Under the pieces are notes generated by a model that worked only from the letters and a program-made list of their open reading frames with translations, did not search any database and was not told the origin of the DNA. Shown here piece by piece: positions 3,187 through 64,000 of a stretch of DNA of 64,000 nucleotides (positions within the stretch are counted from its first letter, which is position 1; every line of letters begins with the position of its first letter). This stretch comes from Siphonodentalium dalli (taxonomy: Eukaryota > Mollusca > Scaphopoda > Gadilida > Siphonodentaliidae). The DNA lies in contig CP136066.1 in assembly GCA_032622095.1 (NCBI GenBank), forward strand, positions 54,464,609 to 54,528,608. Reading direction: 5' to 3'. Position numbers and translations under genes: made by a program.

Positions 3187-3360
3187 ATATATTTATTTTA
3201 TTACACATGATATATTGCTAATGGGACCCACGTAATCCATGAAGACTCCTACCTACTTCATATAATATAATTATTGACTTTGAATTGAACATTATATTTT
3301 CTCCTGTTCTAAAGCGGTGCCCATTTGCCGGTACTCTGAGTGAATTTTTTATGTTCAGTA
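3187..3360. other. Unique DNA up to the left boundary of the satellite
   Basis: AT-rich with no gene. Homology to the satellite begins at about 3361 with atgaaaactagcactagtca. No terminal inverted repeat or target duplication can be assigned because the other end of the array is outside the window. Confidence 0.5.
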
Positions 3361-3413
3361 ATGAAAACTAGCACTAGTCATTAGTGGTACTGGACTGGGA
3401 ACCAGTCATCTTA
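3361..3413 (+). repeat. First partial monomer at the left edge
   Basis: Begins atgaaaactagcactagtca and runs to the start of L1. It carries private changes (cattagtgg instead of cagtagtgg). The array thus opens with a monomer fragment followed at once by an L unit, which is compatible with L lying at one end of a composite unit. Confidence 0.8.
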
Positions 3414-4143
3414 TAGTTGAGTTATCAGTCGACGTTTATATATGTTTGCCATTTTTTATAGATCTTTCGATATAAAATATTATAACACCACTGGCTAGTG
3501 CTAGTCAAAACATTCTAATTTCTGGGATGCTTCAAAGAAAATAACACCTTTGTTCTTATTAACAACAGTATTAAAAATATATAAAAAAAGTCAGGAATGG
3601 ACAAGATAAACTGTCAATTCTACATGATGAGCTGATACATGGCATTAACAGCTTAAGATGCTAATGTGTTTTGTCACATTTATTAGGTATTGTTTTGACA
3701 AGTCAACAACCACTGACAAAAAAGCTGGAGCACTATGTGTCATTAGATAGTCTATTGTTTGTCACAAAGTGAGAACTTTTCACATCATTAGCAAGTTTGG
3801 AGTGAGGGTTTAAATATTCTGCAGAAACTAAATTTTCAGCATAACATCAACTGTAGTGGACAGGAAAGCAGCTAGGATTTAATATTATAACTGGTTGTTT
3901 TTTTCAACATTGGATTATTTTAGGCATCCAAGCTTAAGGTAAGGTATATTCATTTCTTATAATCTTAGATTTGTGTTTAAAATCAATCACAACACATTTT
4001 TTTTGCATTGTAAAATTTATGGATTTCATTTATTATCATTCATCCAAAAGGATCTTTTAAAATTAAACAAATGTCCTAAATTAAAGAAATTCTTTAGTAA
4101 AATTTAATCAAATATTAAGTTGAAATTTTTTGACATTCAAATT
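3414..4143 (+). repeat. L unit, copy L1 (most diverged)
   Basis: Collinear with the other L units but with many private substitutions (tatagatctttcgatataa near the start, gacaaaaaagctgg in the middle, ggttgtttttttc before the acceptor-like site). The TATA-like segment is present as tatataaaaaaag. The 15-bp segment gcatccaagcttaag bounded by AG and GTAAGG is intact at 3924-3938. Its tail has a single copy of the ttgaaa..tgacattcaaat motif that is doubled in long-tail copies. It shares gggatgcttc and the shorter aacaacagta with L11, suggesting these states are ancestral. Confidence 0.9.
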
Positions 4144-7100
4144 GGTTGAGATAAAAGTTGATACATATATATTAGTTTAACGATTTTCAAGTTATTTTGA
4201 CAGAGAAAAGCTTCCTAGCCAGTCTCACTATTTGGTCAGTTCTGGTGCAACATGAAACTAGCACTAGCCAGTAGTGGTACTGGACTAGGAACCAGTCATC
4301 TTATGGTTGAGTTAAAAGTTGATGTATATATTGCCACGGTTTATCGATTTTCAAGTTCTTTTGACAAATAAGCTTCCTAGTCAGTCCCATTATTTGGTCA
4401 GTTCTGGTGTGACATGAAAACTAGCACTAGCCAGTAGTGGTGTTGGACTGGGAAACAGTCATCTTATGGTTGAGTTAAAAGTTGATGCATTTATTGGTTT
4501 ATCGATTTTCAACTTCTTTTAACAGAGAAACGCTTCCTAGTCAGTCCCACTATTTGGTCAGTTCGAGTGTGAAATGAAAACTAGCACTAGCCACTAGTGG
4601 AACTGGACTGGGAACCAGTCATCTTATGGTTGAGTTAAAAGGGTTGATGTATATAATGGTTTATCGATTTTCAAGTTTTTTTCGGACGAAGAAACGTATC
4701 CTAGTCAGTCACACTATTTGGTCAGTTCTGGTACGAAATGAAAACTAGCACTAGCCAGTAGTGGTGTTGGACTTGGAACCAGTCATCTTATGGTTGAGTC
4801 AAAAGTTTATGTATCTATTTTCAAGATATTTTGACAGAGAAAAGCTTAATAGTCAGTCCCACTATTTAGTCAGTTCTGGTGTGACATGACAACTAGCACT
4901 AGTCAGTAGTGGTGTTGGACTGGGTACCAGTCATCTTATGGTTGAGTTAAAAGTTGATGTATATATTGGTTTATCAAAATTTTCAAGTTATTTTGACAGA
5001 GAAACGCTTCCTAGTCAGTCCCACTATTTGGTCAGTTCTGGTGTGATATGAAAACTAGCACTAGTCAGTAGTGGTACTGGACTGGGAACCAATCATCTTA
5101 TGGTCGAGTCAAACGTTGATGTATATAATGGTTTATCTATTTTCAAGATCTTATGAAAGAGAAAAGCTTCCTAGTCAGTCCCACTATTTGGTCAGTTCTG
5201 GTGTGAAATGAAAAATAGCACTGAGTTAAAAGTTGATATACCTATTGGTTAATCGATTTTGAAGTTATTTTTACCGAGAAAAGCTTCCTAGACAGTTCCA
5301 CTATTTGGTCAGTTCTGGTGCAACATGAAACTAGCACTAGTCAGTAGTGGTACTTGACTGGGAACCAGTCATCTTATGGTTGAGTTAAAAGTTGATGTAT
5401 ACATTGGTTTATCGATTTTCAAAATGTTTTGACATAGAAAAGCTTCCTAGTCAGTTCCACTATTTGGTCAGTTCTGGTGTGATATGAAAACTAGCACTAG
5501 CCAGTAGTGGTGTTGGACTGGGAACCAGTCATCTTATGGTTGAGTCAAAAGTTTATGTATCTATTTTCAAGATCTTTTGACAGAGAAAAGCTTCCTAGTC
5601 AGTCCCACTATTTGGTCAGTTCTGGTGTGATATGAAAACTAGCACTAGCCAGTAGTGGTGTTGGACTGGAAACCAGTCATCTTAAGGTTGAGTCAAAAGT
5701 TGATGTATATATTGGTTTATCGATTTCAAGTTATTTTGACAGAGAAAAGCTTCCTAGTCAGTCCCACTATTTGGTCAGTTCTAGTGTGACATGAAAACTA
5801 GCACTAGTCAGTAGTGGTACTGGACTGGGAACCAGTCATCTTATGGTTGAGTCAAAAGTTGATATATATATATTGGTTTATCTATTTTCAAGATCTTTTG
5901 ACAGCGAAAAGCTTCCTAGACGTACAGTCCCACTATTTGGTCAGTTCTGGTGTGACATGAAAACTAGCACTAGTCAGTAGTGGTACTGGACTGGGAACCA
6001 GTCATCTTATGGTTGAGTTAAAAGTTGATGAATACATTGGTTTATCGATTTTCAAGATCTTTTGACATAGAAAAGCTTCCTAGTCAGTTCCACTATTTGG
6101 TCAGTTCTGGCGTGATATGAAAACTAGCACTAGCCAGTAGTGGTGTTGGACTGGAAACCAGTCATCTTATGGTTGAGTCAAAAGTTGATGTATATATTGG
6201 TTTATCAATGTTCAAGTTATTTTGACAAAGAAAAGCTTCCTAGTCAGTCCCACTATTTGGTCAGTTCTAGTGTGATATGAAAACTAGCACTAGTCAGTAG
6301 TGGTACTGGACTGGGAACCAGTCATCTTATGGTTGAGTCAAAAGTTGATGTATATATTGGTTTATCTATTTTCAAGATCTTTTGACAGAGAAAAGCTTCC
6401 TAGTCAGTCCCACTATTTGGTCAGTTCTGGTGTGAAATGAAAAATAGCACTGAGTTAAAAGTTGATATACCTATTGGTTAATCGATTTTGAAGTTATTTT
6501 TACCGAGAAAAGCTTCCTCGACAGTTCCACTATTTGGTCAGTTCTGGTGCAACATGAAACTAGCACTAGTCAGTAGTGGTACTTGACTGGGAACCAGTCA
6601 TCTTATGGTTGAGTTAAAAGTTGATGTATACATTGGTTTATCGATTTTCAAAATGTTTTGACATAGAAAAGCTTCCTAGTCAGTTCCACTATTTGGTCAG
6701 TTCTGGTGCGATATGAAAACTAGCACTAGCCAGTAGTGGTGTTGGACTGGGAACCAGTCATCTTATGGTTGAGTCAAAAGTTTATGTATCTATTTTCAAG
6801 ATCTTTTGACAGAGAAAAGCTTCCTAGTCAGTCCCACTATTTGGTCAGTTCTGGTGTGATATGAAAACTAGCACTAGCCAGTAGTGGTGTTGGACTGGAA
6901 ACCAGTCATCTTAAGGTTAAGTCAAAAGTTGATGTATATATTGGTTTATCGATTTTCAAGTTATTTTGACAGAGAAAAGCTTCCTAGTCAGTCCCACTAT
7001 TTGGTCAGTTCTAGTGTGACATGAAAACTAGCACTAGTCAGTAGTGGTACTGGACTGGGAACCAGTCATCTTATGGTTGAGTCAAAAGTTGATATATATA

Positions 7101-10100
7101 TATTGGTTTATCTATTTTCAAGATCTTTTGACAGCGAAAAGCTTCCTAGACAGTCCCACTATTTGGTCAGTTCTGGTGTGACATGAAAACTAGCACTAGT
7201 CAGTAGTGGTACTGGACTGGGAACCAGTCATCTTATGGTTGAGTTAAAAGTTGATGAATACATTGGTTTATCGATTTTCAAGATCTTTTGACATAGAAAA
7301 GCTTCCTAGTCAGTCCCACTATTTGGTCAGTTCTGGTGTGATATGAAAACTAGCACTAGCCAGTAGTGGTGTTGGACTGGAAACCAGTCATCTTATGGTT
7401 GAGTCAAAAGTTGATGTATATATTGGTTTATCAATGTTCAAGTTATTTTGACAAAGAAAAGCTTCCTAGTCAGTCCCACTATTTGGTCAGTTCTAGTGTG
7501 ATATGAAAACTAGCACTAGTCAGTAGTGGTACTGGACTGGGAACCAGTCATCTTATGGTTGAGTCAAAAGTTGATGTATATATTGGTTTATCTATTTTCA
7601 AGATCTTTTGACAGAGAAAAGCTTCCTAGTCAGTCCCACTATTTGGTCAGTTCTGGTGTGAAATGAAAAATAGCACTGAGTTAAAAGTTGATATACCTAT
7701 TGGTTAATCGATTTTGAAGTTATTTTTACCGAGAAAAGCTTCCTAGACAGTTCCACTATTTGGTCAGTTCTGGTGCAACATGAAACTAGCACTAGTCAGT
7801 AGTGGTACTTGACTGGGAACCAGTCATCTTATGGTTGAGTTAAAAGTTGATGTATACATTGGTTTATCGATTTTCAAAATGTTTTGACATAGAAAAGCTT
7901 CCTAGTCAGTTCCACTATTTGGTCAGTTCTGGTGTGATATGAAAACTAGCACTAGCCAGTAGTGGTGTTGGACTGGGAACCAGTCATCTTATGGTTGAGT
8001 CAAAAGTTTATGTATCTATTTTCAAGATCTTTTGACAGAGAAAAGCTTCCTAGTCAGTCCCACTATTTGGTCAGTTCTGGTGTGATATGAAAACTAGCAC
8101 TAGCCAGTAGTGGTGTTGGACTGGAAACCAGTCATCTTAAGGTTAAGTCAAAAGTTGATGTATATATTGGTTTATCGATTTTCAAGTTATTTTGACAGAG
8201 AAAAGCTTCCTAGTCAGTCCCACTATTTGGTCAGTTCTAGTGTGACATGAAAACTAGCACTAGTCAGTAGTGGTACTGGACTGGGAACCAGTCATCTTAT
8301 GGTTGAGTCAAAAGTTGATATATATATATTGGTTTATCTATTTTCAAGATCTTTTGACAGCGAAAAGCTTCCTAGACAGTCCCACTATTTGGTCAGTTCT
8401 GGTGTGACATGAAAACTAGCACTAGTCAGTAGTGGTACTGGACTGGGAACCAGTCATCTTATGGTTGAGTTAAAAGTTGATGAATACATTGGTTTATCGA
8501 TTTTCAAGATCTTTTGACATAGAAAAGCTTCCTAGTCAGTCCCACTATTTGGTCAGTTCTGGTGTGATATGAAAACTAGCACTAGCCAGTAGTGGTGTTG
8601 GACTGGAAACCAGTCATCTTATGGTTGAGTCAAAAGTTGATGTATATATTGGTTTATCAATGTTCAAGTTATTTTGACAAAGAAAAGCTTCCTAGTCAGT
8701 CCCACTATTTGGTCAGTTCTAGTGTGATATGAAAACTAGCACTAGTCAGTAGTGGTACTGGACTGGGAACCAGTCATCTTATGGTTGAGTCAAAAGTTGA
8801 TGTATATATTGGTTTATCTATTTTCAAGATCTTTTGACAGAGAAAAGCTTCCTAGTCAGTCCCACTATTTGGTCAGTTCTGGTGTGAAATGAAAAATAGC
8901 ACTGAGTTAAAAGTTGATATACCTATTGGTTAATCGATTTTGAAGTTATTTTTACCGAGAAAAGCTTCCTAGACAGTTCCACTATTTGGTCAGTTCTGGT
9001 GCAACATGAAACTAGCACTAGTCAGTAGTGGTACTTGACTGGGAACCAGTCATCTTATGGTTGAGTTAAAAGTTGATGTATACATTGGTTTATCGATTTT
9101 CAAAATGTTTTGACATAGAAAAGCTTCCTAGTCAGTTCCACTATTTGGTCAGTTCTGGTGTGATATGAAAACTAGCACTAGCCAGTAGTGGTGTTGGACT
9201 GGGAACCAGTCATCTTATGGTTGAGTCAAAAGTTTATGTATCTATTTTCAAGATCTTTTGACAGAGAAAAGCTTCCTAGTCAGTCCCACTATTTGGTCAG
9301 TTCTGGTGTGATATGAAAACTAGCACTAGCCAGTAGTGGTGTTGGACTGGAAACCAGTCATCTTAAGGTTAAGTCAAAAGTTGATGTATATATTGATTTA
9401 TCGATTTTCAAGTTATTTTAACAGAGAAAAGCTTCCTAGTCAGTCCCACTATTTGGTCAGTTCTAGTGTGACATGAAAACTAGCACTAGTCAGTGGTGGT
9501 ACTGGACTGGGAACCAGTCATCTTATGGTTGAGTCAAAAGTTGATATATATATATTGGTTTATCTATTTTCAAGATCTTTTGACAGCGAAAAGCTTCCTA
9601 GACAGTCCCACTATTTGGTCAGTTCTGGTGTGACATGAAAACTAGCACTAGTCAGTAGTGGTACTGGACTGGGAACCAGTCATCTTATGGTTGAGTTAAA
9701 AGTTGATGAATACATTGGTTTATCGATTTTCAAGATCTTTTGACATAGAAAAGCTTCCTAGTCAGTTCCACTATTTGGTCAGTTCTGGTGTGATATGAAA
9801 ACTAGCACTAGCCAGTAGTGGTGTTGGACTGGAAACCAGTCATCTTATGGTTGAGTCAAAAGTTGATGTATATATTGGTTTATCAATGTTCAAGTTATTT
9901 TGACAAAGAAAAGCTTCCTAGTCAGTCCCACTATTTGGTCAGTTCTAGTGTGATATGAAAACTAGCACTAGTCAGTAGTGGTACTGGACTGGGAACCAGT
10001 CATCTTATGGTTGAGTCAAAAGTTGATGTATATATTGGTTTATCTATTTTCAAGATCTTTTGACAGAGAAAAGCTTCCTAGTCAGTTCCACTATTTGGTC

Positions 10101-12620
10101 AGTTCTGGTGTGATATGAAAACTAGCACTAGCCAGTAGTGGTGTTGGACTGGGAACCAGTCATCTTATGGTAGAGTCAAAAGTTGATGTATATATTGGTT
10201 AATCGATTTTCAAGTTATTTTGACAGAGAAAAGCTTCCTAGTCAGTCCCACTATTTGGTCAGTTCTGGTGTGATATGAAAACTAGCACTAGCCAGTAGTG
10301 GTGTTGGACTGGAAACCAGTCATCTTATGGTTGAGTCAAAAGTTGATGTATATATTGGTTTATCAATGTTCAAGTTATTTTGACAAAGAAAAGCTTCCTA
10401 GTCAGTCCCACTATTTGGTCAGTTCTAGTGTGATATGAAAACTAGCACTAGTCAGTAGTGGTACTGGACTGGGAACCAGTCATCTTATGGTTGAGTCAAA
10501 AGTTGATGTATATATTGGTTTATCTATTTTCAAGATCTTTTGACAGAGAAAAGCTTCCTAGTCAGTCCCACTATTTGGTCAGTTCTGGTGTGAAATGAAA
10601 AATAGCACTGAGTTAAAAGTTGATATACCTATTGGTTAATCGATTTTGAAGTTATTTTTACCGAGAAAAGCTTCCTAGACAGTTCCACTATTTGGTCAGT
10701 TCTGGTGCAACATGAAACTAGCACTAGTCAGTAGTGGTACTTGACTGGGAACCAGTCATCTTATGGTTGAGTTAAAAGTTGATGTATACATTGGTTTATC
10801 GATTTTCAAAATGTTTTGACATAGAAAAGCTTCCTAGTCAGTTCCACTATTTGGTCAGTTCTGGTGTGATATGAAAACTAGCACTAGCCAGTAGTGGTGT
10901 TGGACTGGGAACCAGTCATCTTATGGTTGAGTCAAAAGTTTATGTATCTATTTTCAAGATCTTTTGACAGAGAAAAGCTTCCTAGTCAGTCCCACTATTT
11001 GGTCAGTTCTGGTGTGATATGAAAACTAGCACTAGCCAGTAGTGGTGTTGGACTGGAAACCAGTCATCTTAAGGTTGAGTCAAAAGTTGATGTATATATT
11101 GGTTTATCGATTTCAAGTTATTTTGACAGAGAAAAGCTTCCTAGTCAGTCCCACTATTTGGTCAGTTCTAGTGTGACATGAAAACTAGCACTAGTCAGTA
11201 GTGGTACTGGACTGGGAACCAGTCATCTTATGGTTGAGTCAAAAGTTGATATATATATATTGGTTTATCTATTTTCAAGATCTTTTGACAGCGAAAAGCT
11301 TCCTAGACGTACAGTCCCACTATTTGGTCAGTTCTGGTGTGACATGAAAACTAGCACTAGTCAGTAGTGGTACTGGACTGGGAACCAGTCATCTTATGGT
11401 TGAGTTAAAAGTTGATGAATACATTGGTTTATCGATTTTCAAGATCTTTTGACATAGAAAAGCTTCCTAGTCAGTTCCACTATTTGGTCAGTTCTGGCGT
11501 GATATGAAAACTAGCACTAGCCAGTAGTGGTGTTGGACTGGAAACCAGTCATCTTATGGTTGAGTCAAAAGTTGATGTATATATTGGTTTATCAATGTTC
11601 AAGTTATTTTGACAAAGAAAAGCTTCCTAGTCAGTCCCACTATTTGGTCAGTTCTAGTGTGATATGAAAACTAGCACTAGTCAGTAGTGGTACTGGACTG
11701 GGAACCAGTCATCTTATGGTTGAGTCAAAAGTTGATGTATATATTGGTTTATCTATTTTCAAGATCTTTTGACAGAGAAAAGCTTCCTAGTCAGTCCCAC
11801 TATTTGGTCAGTTCTGGTGTGAAATGAAAAATAGCACTGAGTTAAAAGTTGATATACCTATTGGTTAATCGATTTTGAAGTTATTTTTACCGAGAAAAGC
11901 TTCCTCGACAGTTCCACTATTTGGTCAGTTCTGGTGCAACATGAAACTAGCACTAGTCAGTAGTGGTACTTGACTGGGAACCAGTCATCTTATGGTTGAG
12001 TTAAAAGTTGATGTATACATTGGTTTATCGATTTTCAAAATGTTTTGACATAGAAAAGCTTCCTAGTCAGTTCCACTATTTGGTCAGTTCTGGTGTGATA
12101 TGAAAACTAGCACTAGCCAGTAGTGGTGTTGGACTGGGAACCAGTCATCTTATGGTTGAGTCAAAAGTTTATGTATCTATTTTCAAGATCTTTTGACAGA
12201 GAAAAGCTTCCTAGTCAGTCCCACTATTTGGTCAGTTCTGGTGTGATATGAAAACTAGCACTAGCCAGTAGTGGTGTTGGACTGGAAACCAGTCATCTTA
12301 AGGTTAAGTCAAAAGTTGATGTATATATTGGTTTATCGATTTTCAAGTTATTTTGACAGAGAAAAGCTTCCTAGTCAGTCCCACTATTTGGTCAGTTCTG
12401 GTGTGAAATGAAAACTAGCACTAGTCAGTAGTGGTACTGGACTGGGAACCAGTCATCCTATGGTTGAGTCAAAAGTTGATGTATATATTGGTTTATCGAT
12501 TTTCAAGTTCTTTTGACAGAGAAACTCTTCCTAGTCAGTCCCACTATTTGGTCAGATCTGGTGTGAAATGAAAACTAGCACTAGTCAGTATTGGTACTGG
12601 ACTGGGAACCAGTCATCTTA
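4144..12620 (+). repeat. Monomer block 1 (8.5 kb) with ~1.23-kb higher-order repeats
   Basis: The first ~1 kb (4144-5160) contains the most divergent monomers of the array, e.g. tttttcggacgaagaaacg near 4680 and gaaacagtcatc near 4452. From about 5205 the block is built of higher-order units of about 1226-1229 bp. Its last monomer, with gtcagatctgg and agtattgg, is the variant that precedes most L units. Confidence 0.93.
5205..11820 (+). repeat. Higher-order repeat, ~1.23 kb period (5 copies plus partial)
   Basis: A shortened monomer, gaaatgaaaaatagcactga, marks each unit at 5205, 6434, 7660, 8886, 10592 and 11821. Spacings are 1229, 1226, 1226, 1706 and 1229 bp. This fits seven full monomers plus one lacking 43 bp. 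The 1706-bp interval holds three extra monomers (480 bp). Copies starting at 5205 and 10592 share private variants, indicating a later block duplication or conversion. Confidence 0.9.
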
Positions 12621-12789
12621 TAGTTTAGTTATCAGTCGACGTTTATATATGTTTGCCATTTTTTAAAGTTCTTTCAATAGAAAATATTATAACACCACTG
12701 GCTAGTGCTAGTCAAAACATTCTAATTTCTGGGATGCCTCAAAGAAAATAACACCTTTGTTCTTATTAACAACAACAGTACTAAAAATA

Positions 12790-12799
12790 TATATAAAAG
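12790..12799 (+). promoter_or_regulatory. TATA-box-like motif in L (example in L2)
   Basis: tatataaaag fits the RNA polymerase II TATA consensus. It recurs at the same place in L2-L15, and L1 has tatataaaaaaag. Conservation may simply reflect array homogenisation. No initiator or coding frame supports a promoter; the first ATG downstream opens only about a dozen codons. Confidence 0.3.
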
Positions 12800-13135
12800 T
12801 CAGGAATGGACAAGATAAACTGTCAAATCTACATGATGAGCTGATACATGGCATTAACAGCTTAAGATGCTAATGTGTTTTGTCACATTGATTAGGTATT
12901 GTTTTGACAAGTCAACAACCACTGACATCAAAGCTGGAGCATTATGTGTCATTAGATAGTCTATTGTTTGTCACAAAGTGAGAACTTTTCACATCATTAG
13001 CAAGTTTGAAGTGAGGGTTTAAATATTCTGCAGAAACTAAATTTTCAGCATAACATCAACTGTAGTGGGCAGGAAAGCAGCTAGGATTTAATATTATAAC
13101 AACTTGGGTTTTTTTTCAACATTGGATTATTTTAG

Positions 13136-13150
13136 GCATCCAAGCTTAAG
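13136..13150 (+). other. 15-bp segment with splice-acceptor/donor-like borders (example in L2)
   Basis: A run of eight or more T, then attggattattttag, precedes gcatccaagcttaag, which is followed directly by gtaagg. The layout mimics a 3' splice site, a micro-exon and a strong 5' splice site. It is intact in every L copy except L12, including the diverged L1 (3924-3938). Transcription has not been shown, so this is only a candidate. Confidence 0.25.
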
Positions 13151-13344
13151 GTAAGGTATATTAATTTTTTTATAATCTTAGATTTGTGTTTAAAATCAAT
13201 CACAACACATTTTTTTTTTCGATTGTAAAATTTATGGATTTACATTTAATATCATTCATCCAAAAGTAACTTTTAAAATTAAACAAATGTCCTAAAAAAA
13301 AGTTAATAGAAACATTCAGTTGAAATTGTTCTGACATTCAAATT

Positions 13345-14621: not shown

Positions 14622-15345
14622 TAGTTTAGTTATCAGTCGACGTTTATATATGTTTGCCATTTTTTAAAGTTCTTTCAATAGAAAATATTATAACACCACT
14701 GGCTAGTGCTAGTCAAAACATTCTAATTTCTGGGATGCCTCAAAGAAAATAACACCTTTGTTCTTATTAACAACAACAGTACTAAAAATATATATAAAAG
14801 TCAGGAATGGACAAGATAAACTGTCAAATCTACATGATGAGCTGATACATGGCATTAACAGCTTAAGATGCTAATGTGTTTTGTCACATTGATTAGGTAT
14901 TGTTTTGACAAGTCAACAACCACTGACATCAAAGCTGGAGCATTATGTGTCATTAGATAGTCTATTGTTTGTCACAAAGTGAGAACTTTTCACATCATTA
15001 GCAAGTTTGAAGTGAGGGTTTAAATATTCTGCAGAAACTAAATTTTCAGCATAACATCAACTGTAGTGGGCAGGAAAGCAGCTAGGATTTAATATTATAA
15101 CAACTTGGGTTTTTTTTCAACATTGGATTATTTTAGGCATCCAAGCTTAAGGTAAGGTATATTAATTTTTTTATAATCTTAGATTTGTGTTTAAAATCAA
15201 TCACAACACATTTTTTTTTTCGATTGTAAAATTTATGGATTTACATTTAATATCATTCATCCAAAAGTAACTTTTAAAATTAAACAAATGTCCTAAAAAA
15301 AAGTTAATAGAAACATTCAGTTGAAATTGTTCTGACATTCAAATT
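14622..15345 (+). repeat. L unit, copy L3 (724 bp, short tail)
   Basis: Same length and landmarks as L2; its gtcgac anchor is 2001 bp from that of L2. TATA-like and splice-like segments are intact. Confidence 0.93.
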
Positions 15346-16443: not shown

Positions 16444-17167
16444 TAGTTTAGTTATCAGTCGACGTTTATATATGTTTGCCATTTTTTAAAGTTCTTTCAA
16501 TAGAAAATATTATAACACCACTGGCTAGTGCTAGTCAAAACATTCTAATTTCTGGGATGCCTCAAAGAAAATAACACCTTTGTTCTTATTAACAACAACA
16601 GTACTAAAAATATATATAAAAGTCAGGAATGGACAAGATAAACTGTCAAATCTACATGATGAGCTGATACATGGCATTAACAGCTTAAGATGCTAATGTG
16701 TTTTGTCACATTGATTAGGTATTGTTTTGACAAGTCAACAACCACTGACATCAAAGCTGGAGCATTATGTGTCATTAGATAGTCTATTGTTTGTCACAAA
16801 GTGAGAACTTTTCACATCATTAGCAAGTTTGAAGTGAGGGTTTAAATATTCTGCAGAAACTAAATTTTCAGCATAACATCAACTGTAGTGGGCAGGAAAG
16901 CAGCTAGGATTTAATATTATAACAACTTGGGTTTTTTTTCAACATTGGATTATTTTAGGCATCCAAGCTTAAGGTAAGGTATATTAATTTTTTTATAATC
17001 TTAGATTTGTGTTTAAAATCAATCACAACACATTTTTTTTTTCGATTGTAAAATTTATGGATTTACATTTAATATCATTCATCCAAAAGTAACCTTTAAA
17101 ATTAAACAAATGTCCTAAAAAAAAGTTAATAGAAACATTCAGTTGAAATTGTTCTGACATTCAAATT
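16444..17167 (+). repeat. L unit, copy L4 (724 bp, short tail)
   Basis: Standard copy, 1822 bp after L3. It has a single private change, aacctttaaaatt, in the tail. Confidence 0.93.
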
Positions 17168-19227: not shown

Positions 19228-19951
19228 TAGTTTAGTTATCAGTCGACGTTTATATATGTTTGCCATTTTTTAAAGTTCTTTCAATAGAAAATATTATAAC
19301 ACCACTGGCTAGTGCTAGTCAAAACATTCTAATTTCTGGGATGCCTCAAAGAAAATAACACCTTTGTTCTTATTAACAACAACAGTACTAAAAATATATA
19401 TAAAAGTCAGGAATGGACAAGATAAACTGTCAAATCTACATGATGAGCTGATACATGGCATTAACAGCTTAAGATGCTAATGTGTTTTGTCACATTGATT
19501 AGGTATTGTTTTGACAAGTCAACAACCACTGACATCAAAGCTGGAGCATTATGTGTCATTAGATAGTCTATTGTTTGTCACAAAGTGAGAACTTTTCACA
19601 TCATTAGCAAGTTTGAAGTGAGGGTTTAAATATTCTGCAGAAACTAAATTTTCAGCATAACATCAACTGTAGTGGGCAGGAAAGCAGCTAGGATTTAATA
19701 TTATAACAACTTGGGTTTTTTTTCAACATTGGATTATTTTAGGCATCCAAGCTTAAGGTAAGGTATATTAATTTTTTTATAATCTTAGATTTGTGTTTAA
19801 AATCAATCACAACACATTTTTTTTTTCGATTGTAAAATTTATGGATTTACATTTAATATCATTCATCCAAAAGTAACTTTTAAAATTAAACAAATGTCCT
19901 AAAAAAAAGTTAATAGAAACATTCAGTTGAAATTGTTCTGACATTCAAATT
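19228..19951 (+). repeat. L unit, copy L5 (724 bp, short tail)
   Basis: Standard copy. The following block is duplicated after L6 at an offset of 2803 bp. Confidence 0.93.
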
Positions 19952-44871: not shown

Positions 44872-45660
44872 TAGTTTAGTTATCAGTCGACGTTTATATA
44901 TGTTTGCCATTTTTTAAAGTTCTTTCAATAGAAAATATTATAACACCACTGGCTAGTGCTAGTCAAAACATTCTAATTTCTGGGATGCCTCAAAGAAAAT
45001 AACACCTTTGTTCTTATTAACAACAACAGTACTAAAAATATATATAAAAGTCAGGAATGGACAAGATAAACTGTCAAATCTACATGATGAGCTGATACAT
45101 GGCATTAACAGCTTAAGATGCTAATGTGTTTTGTCACATTGATTAGGTATTGTTTTGACAAGTCAACAACCACTGACATCAAAGCTGGAGCATTATGTGT
45201 CATTAGATAGTCTATTGTTTGTCACAAAGTGAGAACTTTTCACATCATTAGCAAGTTTGAAGTGAGGGTTTAAATATTCTGCAGAAACTAAATTTTCAGC
45301 ATAACATCAACTGTAGTGGGCAGGAAAGCAGCTAGGATTTAATATTATAACAACTTGGGTTTTTTTTCAACATTGGATTATTTTAGGCATCCAAGCTTAA
45401 GGTAAGGTATATTAATTTTTTTATAATCTTAGATTTGTGTTTAAAATCAATCACAACACATTTTTTTTTTCGATTGTAAAATTTATGGATTTACATTTAA
45501 TATCATTCATCCAAAAGTAACTCTTAAAATTAAACAAATGTCCTAAAAAAAAGTAAAACTATAGAAAAAATTTAAGAAAAATATTAAATTGAAATGTTTT
45601 GACATTCAAATTTGAGTTTAAATAGAAACATTCAGTTGAAATTGTTCTGACATTCAAATT
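44872..45660 (+). repeat. L unit, copy L9 (789 bp, long tail)
   Basis: Sister of L8, with the same tail and the same tttcggcagag upstream monomer. Confidence 0.93.
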
Positions 45661-47717: not shown

Positions 47718-48365
47718 GACTGGCTAGTGCTAGTCAAAACATTCTAATTTCTGGGATGCCTCAAAGAAAATAACACCTTTGTTCTTATTAACAACAACAG
47801 TACTAAAAATATATATAAAAGTCAGGAATGGACAAGATAAACTGTCAAATCTACATGATGAGCTGATACATGGCATTAACAGCTTAAGATGCTAATGTGT
47901 TTTGTCACATTGATTAGGTATTGTTTTGACAAGTCAACAACCACTGACATCAAAGCTGGAGCATTATGTGTCATTAGATAGTCTATTGTTTGTCACAAAG
48001 TGAGAACTTTTCACATCATTAGCAAGTTTGAAGTGAGGGTTTAAATATTCTGCAGAAACTAAATTTTCAGCATAACATCAACTGTAGTGGGCAGGAAAGC
48101 AGCTAGGATTTAATATTATAACAACTTGGGTTTTTTTCAACATTGGATTATTTTAGGCATCCAAGCTTAAGGTAAGGTATATTAATTTTTTTATAATCTT
48201 AGATTTGTGTTTAAAATCAATCACAACACATTTTTTTTTTCGATTGTAAAATTTATGGATTTACATTTAATATCATTCATCCAAAAGTAACTTTTAAAAT
48301 TAAACAAATGTCCTAAAAAAAAGTTAATAGAAACATTCAGTTGAAATTGTTCTGACATTCAAATT
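47718..48365 (+). repeat. L unit, copy L10 (5'-truncated, short tail)
   Basis: Lacks the first ~75 bp. A monomer is joined directly at ggttt to gactggctagtgctagtc, i.e. at the inverted monomer fragment. The same join occurs in L13 (54961/54962). The tail is the short form, unlike L13. The T run before the acceptor-like site is one base shorter than usual. Confidence 0.92.
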
Positions 48366-50122
48366 GGTTGAGTTAAAAGTTGATATATATATATTGGTTC
48401 ATCGATTTTAAAGTTATTTTGACAGAGAAAAGCTTCCTAGTCAGTCCCACTATTTGGTCAGTTCTGGTGCAACATGAAACTAGCACTAGTCAGTAGTGGT
48501 ACTGGACTGGGAACCAGTCATCTTATGGTTGAGTTAAAAGTTGATGTATACATTGGTTTATCGATTTTCAAGATCTTTTGACATAGAAAAGCTTCCTAGT
48601 CAGTTCCACTATTTGGTCAGTTCTGGTGTGATATGAAAGCTAGCACTAGTCAGTAGTGGTGTTGGACTGGGAACCAGTCATCTTATGGTAGAGTCAAAAG
48701 TTGATGTATATATTGGTTAATCGATTTTCAAGTTATTTTGACAGAGAAAAGCTTCCTAGTCAGTCCCACTATTTGGTCAGTTCTAGTGTGACATGAAAAC
48801 TAGCACTAGTCAGTAGTGGCACTGGACTGGGAACCAGTCATCCTATGGTTGAATCAAAAGTTGATGTAAATAATGGTTTATCTATTTTCAAGATCTTTTG
48901 ACAGAGAAAAGCTTCCTAGTCAGTCCCACTATTTGGTCAGTTCTAGTGTGACATGAAAACTAGCACTAGTCAGTAGTGGTACTGGACTGGGAACCAGTCA
49001 TCCTATGGTTGAGTTAAAAGTTGATGTATACATTGGTTTATCGATTTTCAAGATCTTTTGACAAAGAAAAGCTTCCAAGTCAGTTCCACTATTTGGTCAG
49101 TTCTGGTGTGATATGAAAACTAGCACTAGCCAGTAGTGGTGTTGGACTGGGAACCAGTCATCTTATGGTTGAGTCAAAAGTTGATGTATATATTGGTTTA
49201 TCAATTTTCAAGTTATTTTGACAGAGAAAAGCTTCCTAGTCAGTCCCACTAATTGGTCAGTTCTAGTGTGACATGAAAACTAGCACTAGCCAGTAGTGGT
49301 ACTGGACTGGGAACCAGTCATCTTATGGTTGAGTTAAAAGTATGTCGTATATATTGGTTTATCAATTTTCAAGTTCTTTTGACAGAAAAGCTTCCCAGTC
49401 AGTCCCACTATTCGGTCAGTTCTGGTGACATAAAAACTAGCACTAGTCAGTAGTGGTACTGGACTGGGAACCAGTCATCCTATCGTTGAGTCAAAAGTTG
49501 ATGTATACATTGGTTTATCGATTTTCAAGATCTTTTGACAGAGAAAAGCTTCCTAGTCAGTTCCACTATTTGGTCAGTTCTGGTGTGATATGAAAACTAG
49601 CACTAGCCAGTAGTGGTGTTGGACTGGGAACCAGTCATCTTATGGTTCAGTCAAAAGTTGATGTATATATTGGTTTATCAATTTTCAAGATCTTTTGAAA
49701 GAGAAAAGCTTCCTAGTCAGTCCCACTATTTGGTCAGTTCTAGTGTGACATGAAAACTAGCACTAGTCAGTAGTGGTACGGGACTGGGAACAAGTCATCT
49801 TATGGTTGAGTTAAAAGTTGATGTATACATTGGTTTATCGATTTTCAAGATCTTTTGACAGGGAAAAGCTTCCTAGTCAGTTCCACTATTTGGTCAGTTC
49901 TGGTGTGATATGAAAACTAGCACTAGCCAGTAGTGGTGTTGGACTGGGAACCAGTCATCTTATGGTTCAGTCAAAAGTTGATGTATATATTGGTTTATCA
50001 ATTTTCAAGATCTTTTGAAAGAGAAAAGCTTCCTAGTCAGTCCCACTATTTGGTCAGTTCTAGTGTGACATGAAAACTAGCACTAGTCAGTAGTGGTACT
50101 GGACTGGGAACCAGTCATCTTA
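48366..50122 (+). repeat. Monomer block 10
   Basis: About 11 monomers resembling block 7 (shared gtagagtc, ggtacgggactgg and gacagggaaaagc variants). It ends with an ordinary A-class monomer, not the gatctgg/agtattgg variant that precedes other full L units. Confidence 0.9.
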
Positions 50123-50908
50123 TAGTTTAGTTATCAGTCGACGTTTATATATGTTTGCCATTTTTTAAAGTTCTTTCAATAGAAAATATTATAACACCAC
50201 TGGCTAGTGCTAGTCAAAACATTCTAATTTCTGGGATGCTTCAAAGAAAATAACACCTTTGTTCTTATTAACAACAGTACTAAAAATATATATAAAAGTC
50301 AGGAATGGACAAGATAAACTGTCAAATCTACATGATGAGCTGATACATGGCATTAACAGCTTAAGATGCTAATGTGTTTTGTCACATTGATTAGGTATTG
50401 TTTTGACAAGTCAACAACGACTGACATCAAAGCTGGAGCATTATGTGTCATTAGATAGTCTATTGTTTGTCACAAAGTGAGAACTTTTCACATCATTAGC
50501 AAGTTTGAAGTGAGGGTTTAAATATTCTGCAGAAACTAAATTTTCAGCATAACATCAACTGTAGTGGGCAGGAAAGCAGCTAGGATTTAATATTATAACA
50601 ACTTGGGTTTTTTTTCAACATTGGATTATTTTAGGCATCCAAGCTTAAGGTAAGGTATATTAATTTTTTTATAATCTTAGATTTGTGTTTAAAATCAATC
50701 ACAACACATTTTTTTTTTCGATTGTAAAATTTATGGATTTACATTTAATATCATTCATCCAAAAGTAACTCTTAAAATTAAACAAATGTCCTAAAAAAAA
50801 GTAAAACTATAGAAAAAATTTAAGAAAAATATTAAATTGAAATGTTTTGACATTCAAATTTGAGTTTAAATAGAAACATTCAGTTGAAATTGTTCTGACA
50901 TTCAAATT
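50123..50908 (+). repeat. L unit, copy L11 (786 bp, long tail)
   Basis: Carries gggatgcttc and a 3-bp shorter aacaacagtac, both shared with L1, plus the long tail. The upstream monomer is of ordinary type. L11 may retain older states than its neighbours. Confidence 0.92.
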
Positions 50909-51698
50909 GGTTGTGTTAAAAGTTGATATATATATATTGGTTAATCGATTTTAAAGTTATTTTGACAGAGAAAAGCTTCCTAGTCAGTCCCACTATTTGG
51001 TCAGTTCTAGTGTGATATGAAACTAGCACTAGTCAGTAGTGGTACTGGACTGGGAACCAGTCATCTTATGGTTGAGTCAAAAGTGTATGTATATAATGGT
51101 TTATCAATTTTCAAGATCTTTTGACAGAGAAAAGCTTCCTAGTCAGTTCCACTATTTGGTCAGTTCTGGTGTGATATGAAAACTAGCACTAGCCAGTAGT
51201 GGTGTTGGACTGGGAACCAGTCATCTTATGGTTGAGTCAAAAGTTTATGTATTTATTTTCAAGATCTTTTGACAAAGAAAAGCTTCCAAGTCAGTTCCAC
51301 TATTTGGTCAGTTCTGGTGTGATATGAAAACTAGCACTAGCCAGTAGTGGTGTTGGACTGGGAACCAGTCATCTTATGGTTGAGTCAAAAGTTGATGTAT
51401 ATATATTGGTTTATCTACTTTCAAGATCTTTTGACAGAGAAAAGCTTCCTAGTCAGTCCCACTATTTGGTCAGTTCTGGTGTGAAATGAAAACTAGCACT
51501 AGTCAGTAGTGGTACTGGACTGGGAACCAGTCATCCTATGGTTGAGTCAAAAGTTGATGTATATATTGGTTTATCGATTTTCAAGTTCTTTTGACAGAGA
51601 AACTCTTCCTAGTCAGTCCCACTATTTGGTCAGATCTGGTGTGAAATGAAAACTAGCACTAGTCAGTATTGGTACTGGACTGGGAACCAGTCATCGTA
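50909..51698 (+). repeat. Monomer block 11 (shortest block)
   Basis: Only about five monomers between L11 and L12; the L anchors are 1576 bp apart, the closest spacing in the window. Confidence 0.9.
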
Positions 51699-52384
51699 TA
51701 GTTTAGTTATCAGTCGACGTTTATATATGTTTGCCATTTTTTAAAGTTCTTTCAATAGAAAATATTATAACACCACTGGCTAGTGCTAGTCAAAACATTC
51801 TAATTTCTGGGATGCCTCAAATAAAATAACACCTTTGTTCTTATTAACAACAACAGTACTAAAAATATATATAAAAGTCAGGAATGGACAAGATAAACTG
51901 TCAAATCTACATGATGAGCTGATACATGGCATTAACAGCTTAAGATGCTAATGTGTTTTGTCACATTGATTAGGTATTGTTTTGACAAGTCAACAACCAC
52001 TGACATCAAAGCTGGAGCATTATGTGTCATTAGATAGTCTATTGTTTGTCACAAAGTGAGAACTTTTCACATCATTAGCAAGTTTGAAGTGAGGGTTTAA
52101 ATATTCTGCAGAAACTAAATTTTCAGCATAATATTTTAATTTTTTTATAATCTTAGATTTGTGTTTAAAATCAATCACAACACATTTTTTTTTTCGATTG
52201 TAAAATTTATGGATTTACATTTAATATCATTCATCCAAAAGTAACTCTTAAAATTAAACAAATGTCCTAAAAAAAAGTAAAACTATAGAAAAAATTTAAG
52301 AAAAATATTAAATTGAAATGTTTTGACATTCAAATTTGAGTTTAAATAGAAACATTCAGTTGAAATTGTTCTGACATTCAAATT
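51699..52384 (+). repeat. L unit, copy L12 (internal ~103-bp deletion, long tail)
   Basis: At about 52130 the sequence passes from ttttcagcataa directly to tattttaattttttta. It therefore lacks the T tract, the acceptor-like site, the 15-bp segment and the donor-like site. It also has catcgtatag and aaataaaataac as private changes. This is the only copy without the splice-like module. Confidence 0.92.
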
Positions 52385-54961
52385 GGTTGAGTTAAAAGTT
52401 GATATATATATATTGGTTAATCGATTTTAAAGTTATTTTGACAGAGAAAAGCTTCCTAGTCAGTCCCACTATTTGGTCAGTTCTAGTGTGACATGAAAAC
52501 TAGCACTAGTGGCACTGGACTGACTGGGAACCAGTCATCCTACGGTTGAATCAAAAGTTGATGTAAATAATGGTTTATCTATTTTCAAGATCTTTTGACA
52601 GAGAAAAGCTTCCTAGTCAGTCCCACTATTTGGTCAGTTCTAGTGTGACATGAAAACTAGCACTAGTCAGTAGTGGTACTGGACTGGGAACCAGTCATCT
52701 TATGGTTGAGTCAAAAGTTTATGTATATAATGGTTTATCAATTTTCAAGATCTTTTGACAGAGAAAAGCTTCCTAGTCAGTCCCACTATTTGGTCAGTTC
52801 TAGTGTGACATGAAAACTAGCACTAGTCAGTAGTGGCACTGGACTGGGAACCAGTCATCCTATGGTTGAATCAAAAGTTGATGTATATAATGGTTTATCT
52901 ATTTTCAAGATCTTTTGACAGAGAAAAGCTTCCTAGTCAGTCCCACTATTTGGTCAGTTCTAGTGTGACATGAAAACTAGCACTAGTCAGTAGTGGTACT
53001 GGACTGGGAACCAGTCATCCTACGGTTGAGTTAAAAGTTGATGTATATATTGGTTTATCGATTTTCAAGTTATTTTGACAGAGAAAAGCTTCCTAGTCAG
53101 TCCCACTAATTGGTCAGTTCTAGTGAGACATGAAAACTAGCACTAGTCAGTAGTGGAACTGGACTGGGAACCAGTCATCTTATGGTTGAGTTAAAAGTAT
53201 GTCGTATATATTGGTTTAACAATTTTCAAGTTCTTTTGACAGAAAAGCTTCCCAGTCAGTCCCACTATTCGGTCAGTTCTGGTGACATAAAAACTAGCAC
53301 TAGTCAGTAGTGCTACTGGACTGGGAACCAGTCATCCTATGGTTGAGTCAAAAGTTGATGTATACATTGGTTTATCGATTTTCAAGATCTTTTGACAGAG
53401 AAAAGCTTCCTAGTCAGTTCCAGTATTTGGTCAGTTCTGGTGTGATATGAAAACTAGCACTAGCCAGTAGTGGTATTGGACTGGGAACCAGTCATCTTAT
53501 GGTTCAGTCAAAAGTTGATGTATATATTGGTTTATCTATTTTCAAGATCTTTTGACAGAGAAAAGCTTCCTAGTCAGTCCCACTATTTGGTCAGTTCTAG
53601 TGTGACATGAAAACTAGCACTAGTCAGTAGTGGTACTGGACTGGGAACCAGTCATCTTATGGTTGAGTTAAAAGTTGATGTATACATTGGTTTATCGATT
53701 TTCAAGATCTTTTGACATAGAAAGGCTTCCTAGTCAGTTCCACTATTTGGTCAGTTCTGGTGTGATATGAAAACTAGCACTAGCCAGTAGTGGTGTTGGA
53801 CTGGGAACCAGTCATCTTATGGTTGAATCAAAAGTTGATGTATATAATGGTTTATCTATTTTCAAGATCTTTTGACAGAGAAAAGCTTCCTAGTCAGTCC
53901 CACTATTTGGTCAGTTCTAGTGTGACATGAAAACTAGCACTAGTCAGTAGTGGTACTGGACTGGGAACCAGTCATCCTACGGTTGAGTTAAAAGTTGATG
54001 TATATATTGGTTTATCGATTTTCAAGTTATTTGACAGAGAAAAGCTTCCTAGTCAGTCCCACTAATTGGTCAGTTCTAGTGTGACATGAAAACTAGCACT
54101 AGTCAGTAGTGGTACTGGACTGGGAACCAGTCATCTTATGGTTGAGTTAAAAGTATGTCGTATATATTGGTTTAACAATTTTCAAGTTCTTTTGACAGAA
54201 AAGCTTCCCAGTCAGTCCCACTATTCGGTCAGTTCTGGTGACATAAAAACTAGCACTAGTCAGTAGTGGTACTGGGAACCAGTCATCCTATGGTTGAGTC
54301 AAAAGTTGATGTATACATTGGTTTATCGATTTTCAAGATCTTTTGACAGAGAAAAGCTTCCTAGTCAGTTCCACTATTTGGTCAGTTCTGGTGTAATATG
54401 AAAACTAGCACTAGCCAGTAGTGGTATTGGACTGGGAACCAGTCATCTTATGGTTGAGTCAAAAGTTGATGTATATATTGGTTTATCTATTTTCAAGATC
54501 TTTTGACAGAGAAAAGCTTCCTAGTCAGTCCCACTATTTGGTCAGTTCTAGTGTGACATGAAAACTAGCACTAGTCAGTAGTGGTACTGGACTGGGAACC
54601 AGTCATCCTACGGTTGAGTTAAAAGTTGATGTATATATTGGTTTATCGATTTTCAAGTTATTTTGACAGAGAAAAGCTTCCTAGTCAGTCCCACTATTTG
54701 GTCAGTTCTAGTGTGACATGAAAACTAGCACTAGTCAGTAGTGGTACTGGACTGGGAACCAGTCATCTTATGGTTGAGTTAAAAGTATGTCGTATATATT
54801 GGTTTAACAATTTTCAAGTTCTTTTGACAGAAAAGTTTCCCAGTCAGTCCCACTATTCGGTCAGTTCTGGTAACATAAAAACTAGCACTAGTCAGTAGTG
54901 CTACTGGACTGGGAACCAGTCATCCTATGGTTGAGTCAAAAGTTGATGTATACATTGGTTT
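52385..54961 (+). repeat. Monomer block 12
   Basis: Begins with a rearranged monomer (actagtggcactggactgactggg near 52505: one stretch deleted and gact repeated). The rest follows block 9 with an initial offset of 6765 bp, rising to 7244 bp after three extra monomers (479 bp) near 53640-54120. It ends at the same truncated-L join as block 9. Confidence 0.9.
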
Positions 54962-55670
54962 GACTGGCTAGTGCTAGTCAAAACATTCTAATTTCTGGGA
55001 TGCCTCAAAGAAAATAACACCTTTGTTCTTATTAACAACAACAGTACTAAAAATATATATAAAAGTCAGGAATGGACAAGATAAACTGTCAAATCTACAT
55101 GATGAGCTGATACATGGCATTAACAGCTTAAGATGCTAATGTGTTTTGTCACATTGATTAGGTATTGTTTTGACAAGTCAACAACCACTGACATCAAAGC
55201 TGGAGCATTATGTGTCATTAGATAGTCTATTGTTTGTCACAAAGTGAGAACTTTTCACATCATTAGCAAGTTTGAAGTGAGGGTTTAAATATTCTGCAGA
55301 AACTAAATTTTCAGCATAACATCAACTGTAGTGGGCAGGAAAGCAGCTAGGATTTAATATTATAACAACTTGGTTTTTTTTTCAACATTGGATTATTTTA
55401 GGCATCCAAGCTTAAGGTAAGGTATATTAATTTTTTTATAATCTTAGATTTGTGTTTAAAATCAATCACAACACATTTTTCGATTGTAAAATTTATGGAT
55501 TTACATTTAATATCATTCATCCAAAAGTAACTCTTAAAATTAAACAAATGTCCTAAAAAAAAGTAAAACTATAGAAAAAATTTAAGAAAAATATTAAATT
55601 GAAATGTTTTGACATTCAAATTTGAGTTTAAATAGAAACATTCAGTTGAAATTGTTCTGACATTCAAATT
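54962..55670 (+). repeat. L unit, copy L13 (5'-truncated, long tail)
   Basis: Same 5' join as L10 (offset 7244 bp), preceded by the same gtttcccag and ctggtaacat variants, but with the long tail. The T run in acacatttttcgattg is shortened. It looks like a recombinant between an L10-type head and an L8/L9-type tail. Confidence 0.92.
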
Positions 55671-59292: not shown

Positions 59293-60016
59293 TAGTTTAG
59301 TTATCAGTCGACGTTTATATATGTTTGCCATTTTTTAAAGTTCTTTTAATAGAAAATATTATAACACCACTGGCTAGTGCTAGTCAAAACATTCTAATTT
59401 CTGGGATGCCTCAAAGAAAATAACACCTTTGTTCTTATTAACAACAACAGTACTAAAAATATATATAAAAGTCAGGAATGGACAAGATAAACTGTCAAAT
59501 CTACATGATGAGCTGATACATGGCATTAACAGCTTAAGATGCTAATGTGTTTTGTCACATTGATTAGGTATTGTTTTGACAAGTCAACAACCACTGACAT
59601 CAAAGCTGGAGCATTATGTGTCATTAGATAGTCTATTGTTTGTCACAAAGTGAGAACTTTTCACATCATTAGCAAGTTTGAAGTGAGGGTTTAAATATTC
59701 TGCAGAAACTAAATTTTCATCATAACATCAACTGTAGTGGGCAGGAAAGCAGCTAGGATTTAATATTATAACAACTTGGGTTTTTTTTCAACATTGGATT
59801 ATTTTAGGCATCCAAGCTTAAGGTAAGGTATATTAATTTTTTTATAATCTTAGATTTGTGTTTAAAATCAATCACAACACATTTTTTTTTTCGATTGTAA
59901 AATTTATGGATTTACATTTAATATCATTCATCCAAAAGTAACTTTTAAAATTAAACAAATGTCCTAAAAAAAAGTTAATAGAAACATTCAGTTGAAATTG
60001 TTCTGACATTCAAATT
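59293..60016 (+). repeat. L unit, copy L14 (724 bp, short tail)
   Basis: Sister of L7 (shared ttcttttaatag and upstream gatgtaaatattgg). Private change ttttcatcataac. Confidence 0.93.
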
Positions 60017-60978: not shown

Positions 60979-61700
60979 TAGTTTAGTTATCAGTCGACGT
61001 TTATATATGTTTGCAATTTTTAAAGTTCTTTCAATAGAAAATATTATAACACCACTGGCTAGTGCTAGTCAAAACATTCTAATTTCTGGGATGCCTCAAA
61101 GAAAATAACACCTTTGTTCTTATTAACAACAACAGTACTAAAAATATATATAAAAGTCAGGAATGGACAAGATAAACTGTCAAATCTACATGATGAGCTG
61201 ATACATGGCATTAACAGCTTAAGATGCTAATGTGTTTTGTCACATTGATTAGGTATTGTTTTGACAAGTCAACAACCACTGACATCAAAGCTGGAGCATT
61301 ATGTGTCATTAGATAGTCTATTGTTTGTCACAAAGTGAGAACTTTTCACATCATTAGCAAGTTTGAAGTGAGGGTTTAAATATTCTGCAGAAACTAAATT
61401 TTCAGCATAACATCAACTGTAGTGGGCAGGAAAGCAGCTAGGATTTAATATTATAACAACTTGGTTTTTTTTTCAACATTGGATTATTTTAGGCATCCAA
61501 GCTTAAGGTAAGGTATATTAATTTTTTTATAATCTTAGATTTGTGTTTAAAATCAATCACAACACATTTTTTTTTTCGATTGTAAAATTTATGGATTTAC
61601 ATTTAATATCATTCATCCAAAAGTAACTTTTAAAATTAAAAAATGTCCTAAAAAAAAGTTAATAGAAACATTCAGTTGAAATTGTTCTGACATTCAAATT
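60979..61700 (+). repeat. L unit, copy L15 (722 bp, short tail)
   Basis: Standard short-tail copy with small private indels (gtttgcaatttttaaag; aaattaaaaaatgtcc). Confidence 0.93.
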
Positions 61701-63428: not shown

Positions 63429-63957
63429 ATATTGTATCTCACGTGACTTTGTTATTGAAATCAAGCTTTCCGATTGGTTGGCTACTCGACTCTATTAGTC
63501 GTAGTTGTATACTACGCCTTCAAGTCTCTCCCATCGTGCACTATGCATATGTAGTTTTGACTACTAAAAATAGTAACGAACACTACATCCAACTTTGTTC
63601 TGAAACTACTTGTTATTTCGCCGCTGATCCAAATTAAAGCTTCAGTAAGGCGAACATCAATTGTCTGAACTTAGTAAAAGTTGAAAATAGTAGTTTCCTA
63701 CTGCTAAATCAAACAAACAAACCTGAACAAAGAGGAATTTAAATTTTTTTTTTTTTTTTTTACATATTATTTTTTTTTCTTTTAATTTCTGCATTTGTTC
63801 GATACAATATAATAATTAGAGCATGACGTGTCGTGAAATACGCCGATATAGTGCATAGTGCGGTTGTGTAGTTCACTCCGCTTCGCGTCGTGAACTACAC
63901 AACCTCACTATGCACTATATCGGCGTATTTCACTCCAAGCCATGCTCTATTTATTGA
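63429..63957. mobile_element. ~529-bp unrelated insertion within a monomer
   Basis: The monomer reads ctagtcagta up to 63428 and continues gtggtactggactggg from 63958, so the intervening DNA was inserted into one unit (ends uncertain by 1-3 bp). It is not satellite-like and holds a 64-codon plus-strand frame (63443-63637) without recognisable motifs, an 18-T run (63744-63761), a second T-rich run (63770-63783) and a large palindrome near its right end. No terminal inverted repeat or clear target duplication is visible, so its class is undetermined. Confidence 0.75.
63817..63949. repeat. 133-bp imperfect palindrome with CpG-containing centre
   Basis: Concentric inverted arms centred at 63883: tagagcatg with catgctcta at the ends, the stretch from 63834 (tgaaatacgccgatatagtg) with its complement ending at 63932, and gttgtgtagttcac with gtgaactacacaac near the centre. 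The loop is cgcttcgcg-like and CpG-rich compared with the satellite. It resembles a foldback/MITE or the terminal hairpin of a larger element. Sequence differs from the left-flank palindromes. Confidence 0.85.
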
Positions 63958-64000
63958 GTGGTACTGGACTGGGAACCAGTCATCTTATGGTTGAGTTAAA
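63958..64000 (+). repeat. Satellite resumes to the right edge
   Basis: gtggtactggactggg followed by aaccagtcatcttatggttg matches the monomer exactly where it was broken at 63428, so the array extends past the window. Confidence 0.9.

Follow-up and report, generated by a model that had tools for sequence, protein, structure and literature searches.

A composite 160-bp satellite of Siphonodentalium dalli that may be a head-to-tail series of one non-coding Helentron-like element

Some satellites consist of a single repeat, and others alternate a repeat with a second, distinct unit. What is the second unit, and how did it come to be there? The question is raised by contig CP136066.1 of the scaphopod mollusc Siphonodentalium dalli (assembly GCA_032622095.1), in which a 64,000-nucleotide window (the whole stretch that was analysed; positions 54,464,609 to 54,528,608 of the forward strand) is occupied, over a 60-kb stretch, by tandem 160-bp monomers and by a longer unit, ‘L’, that separates them into runs. 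We consider it slightly better than an even bet (probability about 0.52) that the array consists of copies, set head to tail, of one non-coding, non-autonomous Helentron-like element, of the HINE, pearl or Cg_HINE type, and that L is not an insert in a satellite but the junction at which one element meets the next. Coordinates given below are those of the window, and the parts of the array to which they refer (monomer runs, motifs and L copies) all lie on the + strand.

The array begins at about 3360 and continues up to the end of the window. Tandem Repeats Finder reports a unit of 160 bp across the whole of it, together with higher-order periods. A small hairpin in the monomers, described below, occurs at 303 sites when up to four mismatches are allowed, and 203 of the 302 intervals between these sites are exactly 160 bp; the next most frequent spacings are 157, 148 and 162. 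L was found 15 times by alignment, always on the + strand, and a 16-mer specific to L likewise gave 15 exact copies, all in this orientation. The numbers of units in the runs after copies 1–8 are 55, 8, 7, 13, 13, 104, 15 and 11, and after copies 9–15 they are 13, 11, 5, 16, 23, 6 and at least 11. These counts take in the first monomer after L and certain short monomers of 117 bp; the final run includes a monomer split by an insertion and is ended by the window border. A preliminary description of this DNA had recognized 160-bp monomers divided by fifteen L units of common orientation, in runs of about 5 to 104 monomers, and on all of these points the alignment and the hairpin intervals agree with it. 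Its estimate of the size of L (~0.72–0.79 kb) was correct at the upper end and slightly too narrow at the lower: hairpin spacing minus monomers gives 0.68–0.79 kb, the shorter values reflecting a deletion in copy 12 and the absence of about 40 bp from the left of copies 10 and 13.

The internal order of L is as follows: a degenerate, truncated monomer, a 16-bp inverted repeat, a unique leader of ~0.6 kb, and then monomers again, the phase of which restarts near 1. Copy 2 can serve as the example. The monomer that precedes it contains, at 12574–12589, the motif ACTAGCACTAGTCAGT, which would be the 3' inverted repeat of the element. Ten nucleotides past this motif lies the hairpin GACTGGGAACCAGTC (12600–12614; 6-bp stem, 3-nt loop), and this is followed by 82 nt of degenerate, truncated terminal monomer (12615–12696) joining one element to the next. 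The 5' inverted repeat, ACTGGCTAGTGCTAGT, then occupies 12697–12712. Monomer-like sequence extends in this copy to about 12684 (direct repeats D4 and D5; 75–79% identity, in two blocks). The preliminary description, which had confined monomer-derived sequence to the first ~75 bp of L and an inverted fragment, was slightly short in the extent of the former.

How the monomer phase behaves across L bears directly on what L is. In 13 of the copies phase breaks off at about 66; for the other two, 10 and 13, the position is 35. To the right of L the phase begins again at about 1. A simple insert would be expected to leave the phase continuous; here it stops and restarts, and so we read L as a junction, although a phase break alone may also be left by an insert that lost part of a monomer. 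Copies 10 and 13 differ from the others: the monomer that abuts L is another one, of the inner type, and it gives way to L precisely where the 5' repeat begins. That two left junctions share the same first base of L is as expected for a real 5' boundary preceded by a truncated upstream 3' end. When the joint of copy 2 is folded as a single strand, both motifs are paired, and the fold is better than those of 196 of 200 shuffles (z −2.45).

The 5' repeat of L is the exact reverse complement (16/16 bp) of one form of the monomer motif, the C-variant, which is present in the array at 117 exact sites and at 294 with up to one mismatch. A 16/16 match to either monomer variant was reached by none of 2000 dinucleotide shuffles of L, and a match of 15 by 7 of them. 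The inverted repeat can be extended to 23 nt at 87%, with TA at the outer end of both arms (pair I1). Of 297 sites (up to two mismatches), 293 have the hairpin exactly 10 nt downstream of the motif, and only 5 of the 160 windows of 15 bp in the monomer are as conserved as the hairpin, a figure that is biased because the units were selected by the hairpin.

The monomers that adjoin L are mostly of their own kinds. We took as first monomer the last 150 bp of the L unit, excluded copy 1 from the counts of first and last monomers, and left 276-bp double units out of the inner set. All 14 first monomers are at least 6.7% different from every inner monomer compared, and 11 of them are within 1.3% of another first monomer. 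Of the 14 last monomers, 11 have another last monomer at a distance of 0–2.5% and no inner one closer than 4.4%. Such grouping, as far as sequence comparison can tell, fits an element whose ends stay fixed while its centre expands; it could also have come about if L plus its neighbours were amplified as one block.

From these parts an element can be pieced together. It would begin with the 5' subterminal inverted repeat ACTGGCTAGTGCTAGT and proceed through the ~0.6-kb leader to the first monomer, n inner monomers and the last monomer, and its 3' end would comprise the matching inverted repeat, the hairpin and a truncated, degenerate monomer. Each L would then be a joint, at which the 3' end of an element runs into the 5' end of its successor. 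We infer that the 16-bp repeats are the ends of this element and that it was once mobile, moved in trans by a rolling-circle Rep-helicase. The first tandem copies would have arisen by rolling-circle read-through past the 3' hairpin, and later unequal homologous exchange—possibly with excision of circles and their reintegration—would have increased the number of monomers, shuffled them and distributed near-identical copies of L through the array. DINE-1 and HINE elements, in the passages of PMC4067079 on which we draw, are non-coding and have palindromic subterminal inverted repeats of 12–15 bp, a 3' palindrome and, optionally, tandem repeats. The S. dalli array has matching subterminal inverted repeats within the range of about 11–16 bp (16/16 to the C-variant, 15/16 to the consensus) and a hairpin on the terminal side of the 3' inverted repeat. 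It is also non-coding: no open reading frame (ORF) of 90 aa or more is present in the window, ORFs that run off its ends not being listed.

Several observations weigh against this reading. Measured against the monomer consensus alone, the inverted match is 15/16, and a match of 15 or more occurred in 3 of 500 shuffles. The hairpin by itself is weak, since shuffling produces a 6-bp stem in 8.6% of 60-nt stretches and in 29% of whole monomers; the inverted repeat, the structure of the joint and the end monomers carry most of the case. Spacing at the 3' end is longer than in the DINE-1/HINE layout (PMC4067079, same passages). In mite HINEs the subterminal repeats lie 2–4 nt from the 5' end and 38–60 bp from the 3' end, and the palindrome lies 8–35 bp from the 3' end. 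In S. dalli the distance from hairpin to next 5' repeat is 41 or 82 nt, which exceeds the mite value of 8–35 bp (plus 2–4), and in the four copies measured the motifs on either side of the joint are 66 or 107 nt apart, versus a published sum of about 40–64. DINE-1 and Cg_HINE also possess a separate 5' inverted repeat complementary to the subterminal repeat, and a left-flank microsatellite; in mite HINEs the former is absent and the latter is present in only some copies. Tandem Repeats Finder (score 50; window) found no left-flank microsatellite in the S. dalli leaders, in which A/T runs are the only short-period feature, and no separate 5' inverted repeat beside the 5' motif appeared in the 25 inverted pairs of 9 nt or more, a length below which pairs would escape. 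On its left the array does not begin at the proposed 5' end. The left flanks (480 bp) of copies 10 and 13 are identical, so their junction counts as one event, and this could be explained by a deletion. The end monomers, too, have exceptions: ahead of copies 10, 11 and 13 the last monomer is no more than 1.3% from an inner one, and the first monomers of copies 11, 12 and 15 are 4.0–6.6% from the nearest other first monomer.

How uniform is L, and how uniform are its surroundings? The mean difference between the cores of copies 2–15 is 0.42%, or 0.34% if copy 12 is set aside; copy 1, which lies at the edge of the array, is 4.3% away from them. Monomers differ by 7.1% in random pairs and by 7.5% in adjacent pairs. 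The 480-bp flanks of the L unit differ by means of 5.4% on the left and 5.7% on the right (91 pairs), and in 52 of the 91 pairs both flanks fall below 96% identity. Copies 3 and 7 are an example: their cores are 100% identical, yet their 480-bp neighbours are only 92.9% and 93.4% alike. From near-identical cores within flanks that differ by ~5.5%, we conclude that homologous exchange has probably scrambled the array, and the single orientation and single phase likewise argue for homologous exchange rather than repeated transposition. Seven neighbour types on the right and six on the left were counted among 14 copies. To judge by its sequence, L acts as a member of a set of about 66 unit types, which reappear beside different neighbours; the types are defined by a threshold of our own choosing (1.35%) that makes low within-type distances partly a matter of construction. 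The two longest runs, of about 55 and 104 monomers, contain higher-order repeats that are free of L, and so monomers also multiply alone. The preliminary description had suggested that the array can be read as head-to-tail copies of one composite unit, L plus n monomers. A head-to-tail reading is supported by the orientation, the inverted repeat, the phase restart and the end-monomer groups; ‘L plus n monomers’ as a constant amplified block is not supported, in view of copies 3 and 7 and of the L-free higher-order repeats.

These same figures might be expected if L were a chance insert in an ordinary 160-bp satellite, introduced once with the loss of part of a monomer and then co-amplified by unequal exchange. 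Copies 2–15 of L, 0.42% apart, look younger than the monomers, at 7.1%; L, like the scrambled monomer types, is found beside several kinds of neighbour; long L-free runs are present; and the grouping of first and last monomers could stem from an amplified block of L plus neighbours. We judge this explanation unlikely, if far from negligible, because it leaves unexplained the 16-bp inverted match at the left end of L, which none of 2000 shuffles reached, the restart of phase near 1, and the use of the same first base of L at two different left junctions.

A further reading is that the element was a foldback or terminal inverted repeat (TIR)-type miniature transposon—as in Tetris, or the miniature inverted-repeat transposable elements (MITEs) with internal tandem repeats—that became tandemized in like manner and is no relative of Helentrons. 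The extension of the inverted repeat to 23 nt at 87%, with TA at both outer ends, would suit an element of this kind, and Tetris is a published precedent for a satellite born from one (PMC4079207, passages on this element). The hairpin that follows the 3' motif by 10 nt at 293 of 297 sites belongs, however, to the HINE layout and is unneeded by a TIR element, and we hold the TIR origin to be improbable. It is very hard to credit that the assembler expanded or scrambled a smaller number of real units: long near-identical blocks are difficult to assemble, but there are many distinct units here (115 different sequences among 280 monomers), and the variants of L are each confined to one copy or one sub-region. 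Many independent insertions of L into the satellite, for which the diverse neighbours of L might speak, are so improbable that we reject them, all 15 copies being in one orientation (a chance of about 2^−14 if orientation were free), with identical monomer phase on the right and mostly shared end-monomer groups.

How does a tandem Helentron-like element compare with systems already described? Cg_HINE of Crassostrea gigas, according to the passages of PMC7492417 cited here, is non-coding and consists of a left flank, central repeats in one orientation (consensus 138–181 bp, average 165 bp) and a right flank that carries a subterminal inverted repeat and a palindrome. The S. dalli array resembles it in being non-coding, in its one-orientation tandem repeats, and in its combination of inverted repeat and palindrome. 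The differences, from the same passages, are that Cg_HINE is described as dispersed elements, the longest array having 29.3 monomers; that it has a left-flank microsatellite, which the S. dalli array is without; and that its right flank is a separate ~60-bp segment past the last repeat, whereas here motif and hairpin recur in the monomers (PMC7492417). The bivalve pearl and Cg170/HindIII (CgiSat01) repeats, also of about 160 bp, are found in Helentron-type elements and in long arrays, and element-associated arrays reach 89 monomers (PMC8268682, PMC5139131; passages on these repeats). The BIV160 primers (PMC5139131) are, judged by eye only, unlike the S. dalli monomer, and the passages on pearl and Cg170 in these two papers describe no head-to-tail series of whole elements at this size.

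Tandem Helitron arrays produced by rolling-circle amplification (Xiong et al. 2016, as described in part of PMC12628747) resemble the present one in having elements in tandem with truncated 3' ends. Many of those arrays are said to have several 5' ends and one 3' end, whereas here a 3'-end-like motif recurs in the monomers (PMC12628747). In the Tetris foldback element of Drosophila virilis, as portrayed in the passages already referred to (PMC4079207), a transposon's internal tandem repeats likewise grew into a satellite; they sit inside terminal inverted repeats, whereas here the repeats follow a single-copy leader. Reviews and satellitome papers, in the portions consulted, describe satellites grown from Helitron central repeats. 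Satellites grown from such elements are already known, in oysters and flies, and the present array looks like a clean example. A large array of whole repeat-bearing elements with a 3'-end motif in each monomer was not met in a non-exhaustive search of the literature, some of it in excerpt.

If the array is indeed a tandem Helentron-like element, the step from transposable element to satellite is visible at one locus, base by base: element ends, terminal monomers, expanding and scrambled inner monomers, and L-free stretches stand side by side. A bolder proposal, which we put forward as doubtful, is that each monomer is a working 3' terminator, with its own inverted repeat and hairpin, so that single 5' ends would be served by hundreds of alternative 3' ends. 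Replication from any L could then stop at any monomer and emit elements of any repeat number, and the head-to-tail array would be built by missed stops. On this view the satellite would give rise to elements, besides being their graveyard, and variable repeat number would have a simple cause.

No Rfam family was detected at the gathering threshold, and no tRNA in a search with the bacterial setting; no RNA-derived origin is thus visible. In exact-pattern scans the monomer had no match in viral or genome contigs, and L had none in genome contigs; a blastn search of L plus a monomer against plasmids was likewise empty. Single words from two of the left-flank palindromes described below, one of them that at 1390–1611, also matched nothing in viral contigs. 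The collections searched were viral, bacterial and archaeal, and these misses mean little. A literature text search for monomer words had no match either. The 160-bp length and a HindIII site are reminiscent of the bivalve BIV160/Cg170 family; this is a resemblance only, and membership of that family is not claimed.

Individual parts of the array are as follows. At the left edge (3360–3489) the array opens with part of a monomer, which carries the 3' inverted-repeat motif and the hairpin, and continues with the degenerate terminal monomer. Copy 1 of L, the most diverged, comes next (3490–4142; 5' inverted repeat and leader), and then the run of ~55 monomers (4143–12573), much of which is made up of 1.23-kb L-free higher-order repeats with 117-bp short monomers. 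Copy 2 occupies 12697–13343, its 5' inverted repeat passing directly into the unique leader, and copies 3–6 are found at 14698–15344, 16520–17166, 19304–19950 and 22107–22753. The L-free run of 104 monomers (22754–39268), with higher-order repeats of about 2.4–2.9 kb, precedes copy 7 (39336–39982). Copies 8 (42445–43156) and 9 (44948–45659) share a leader variant with ~65 bp extra. In copy 10 (47719–48364) the 5' inverted repeat directly adjoins an inner-type monomer. Copies 11 (50199–50907), 12 (51775–52383) and 13 (54963–55669) again have the ~65 extra bp, copy 12 together with an internal deletion of about 100 bp, and copy 13 with the alternative left junction of copy 10. Copies 14 and 15 are at 59369–60015 and 61054–61699. 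The ~65 extra bases in the leaders of copies 8, 9, 11, 12 and 13 (42445–55669) precede the first monomer and resemble a diverged duplication of the leader end; they are absent from the other copies.

The short monomers of 117 bp lack the hairpin and end within the inverted-repeat motif, at 5222, 6451, 7677, 8903, 10609, 11838, 43280, 45783 and 55791. Six of them recur with the mostly 1.23-kb higher-order repeats, and three follow L copies 8, 9 and 13. Apart from monomers and L, the array has a single long stretch, a 528-bp insertion (63429–63956), which splits a monomer one base past the inverted-repeat motif. It has a 145-bp imperfect palindrome (87%) near its right end, and looks like a foldback-type element. 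Relative to the motif (monomer positions 115–130), the left edge of the array breaks about 7 nt before it, the short monomers end at 123, and the right-hand insertion falls after 131; these are three events picked after the fact, and their clustering is only a hint. To the left of the array, the mutually related palindromes at 9–262 (254 bp, 94%) and 827–944 are perhaps copies of a foldback or MITE family, and a further long, imperfect palindrome with two related halves lies at 1390–1611.

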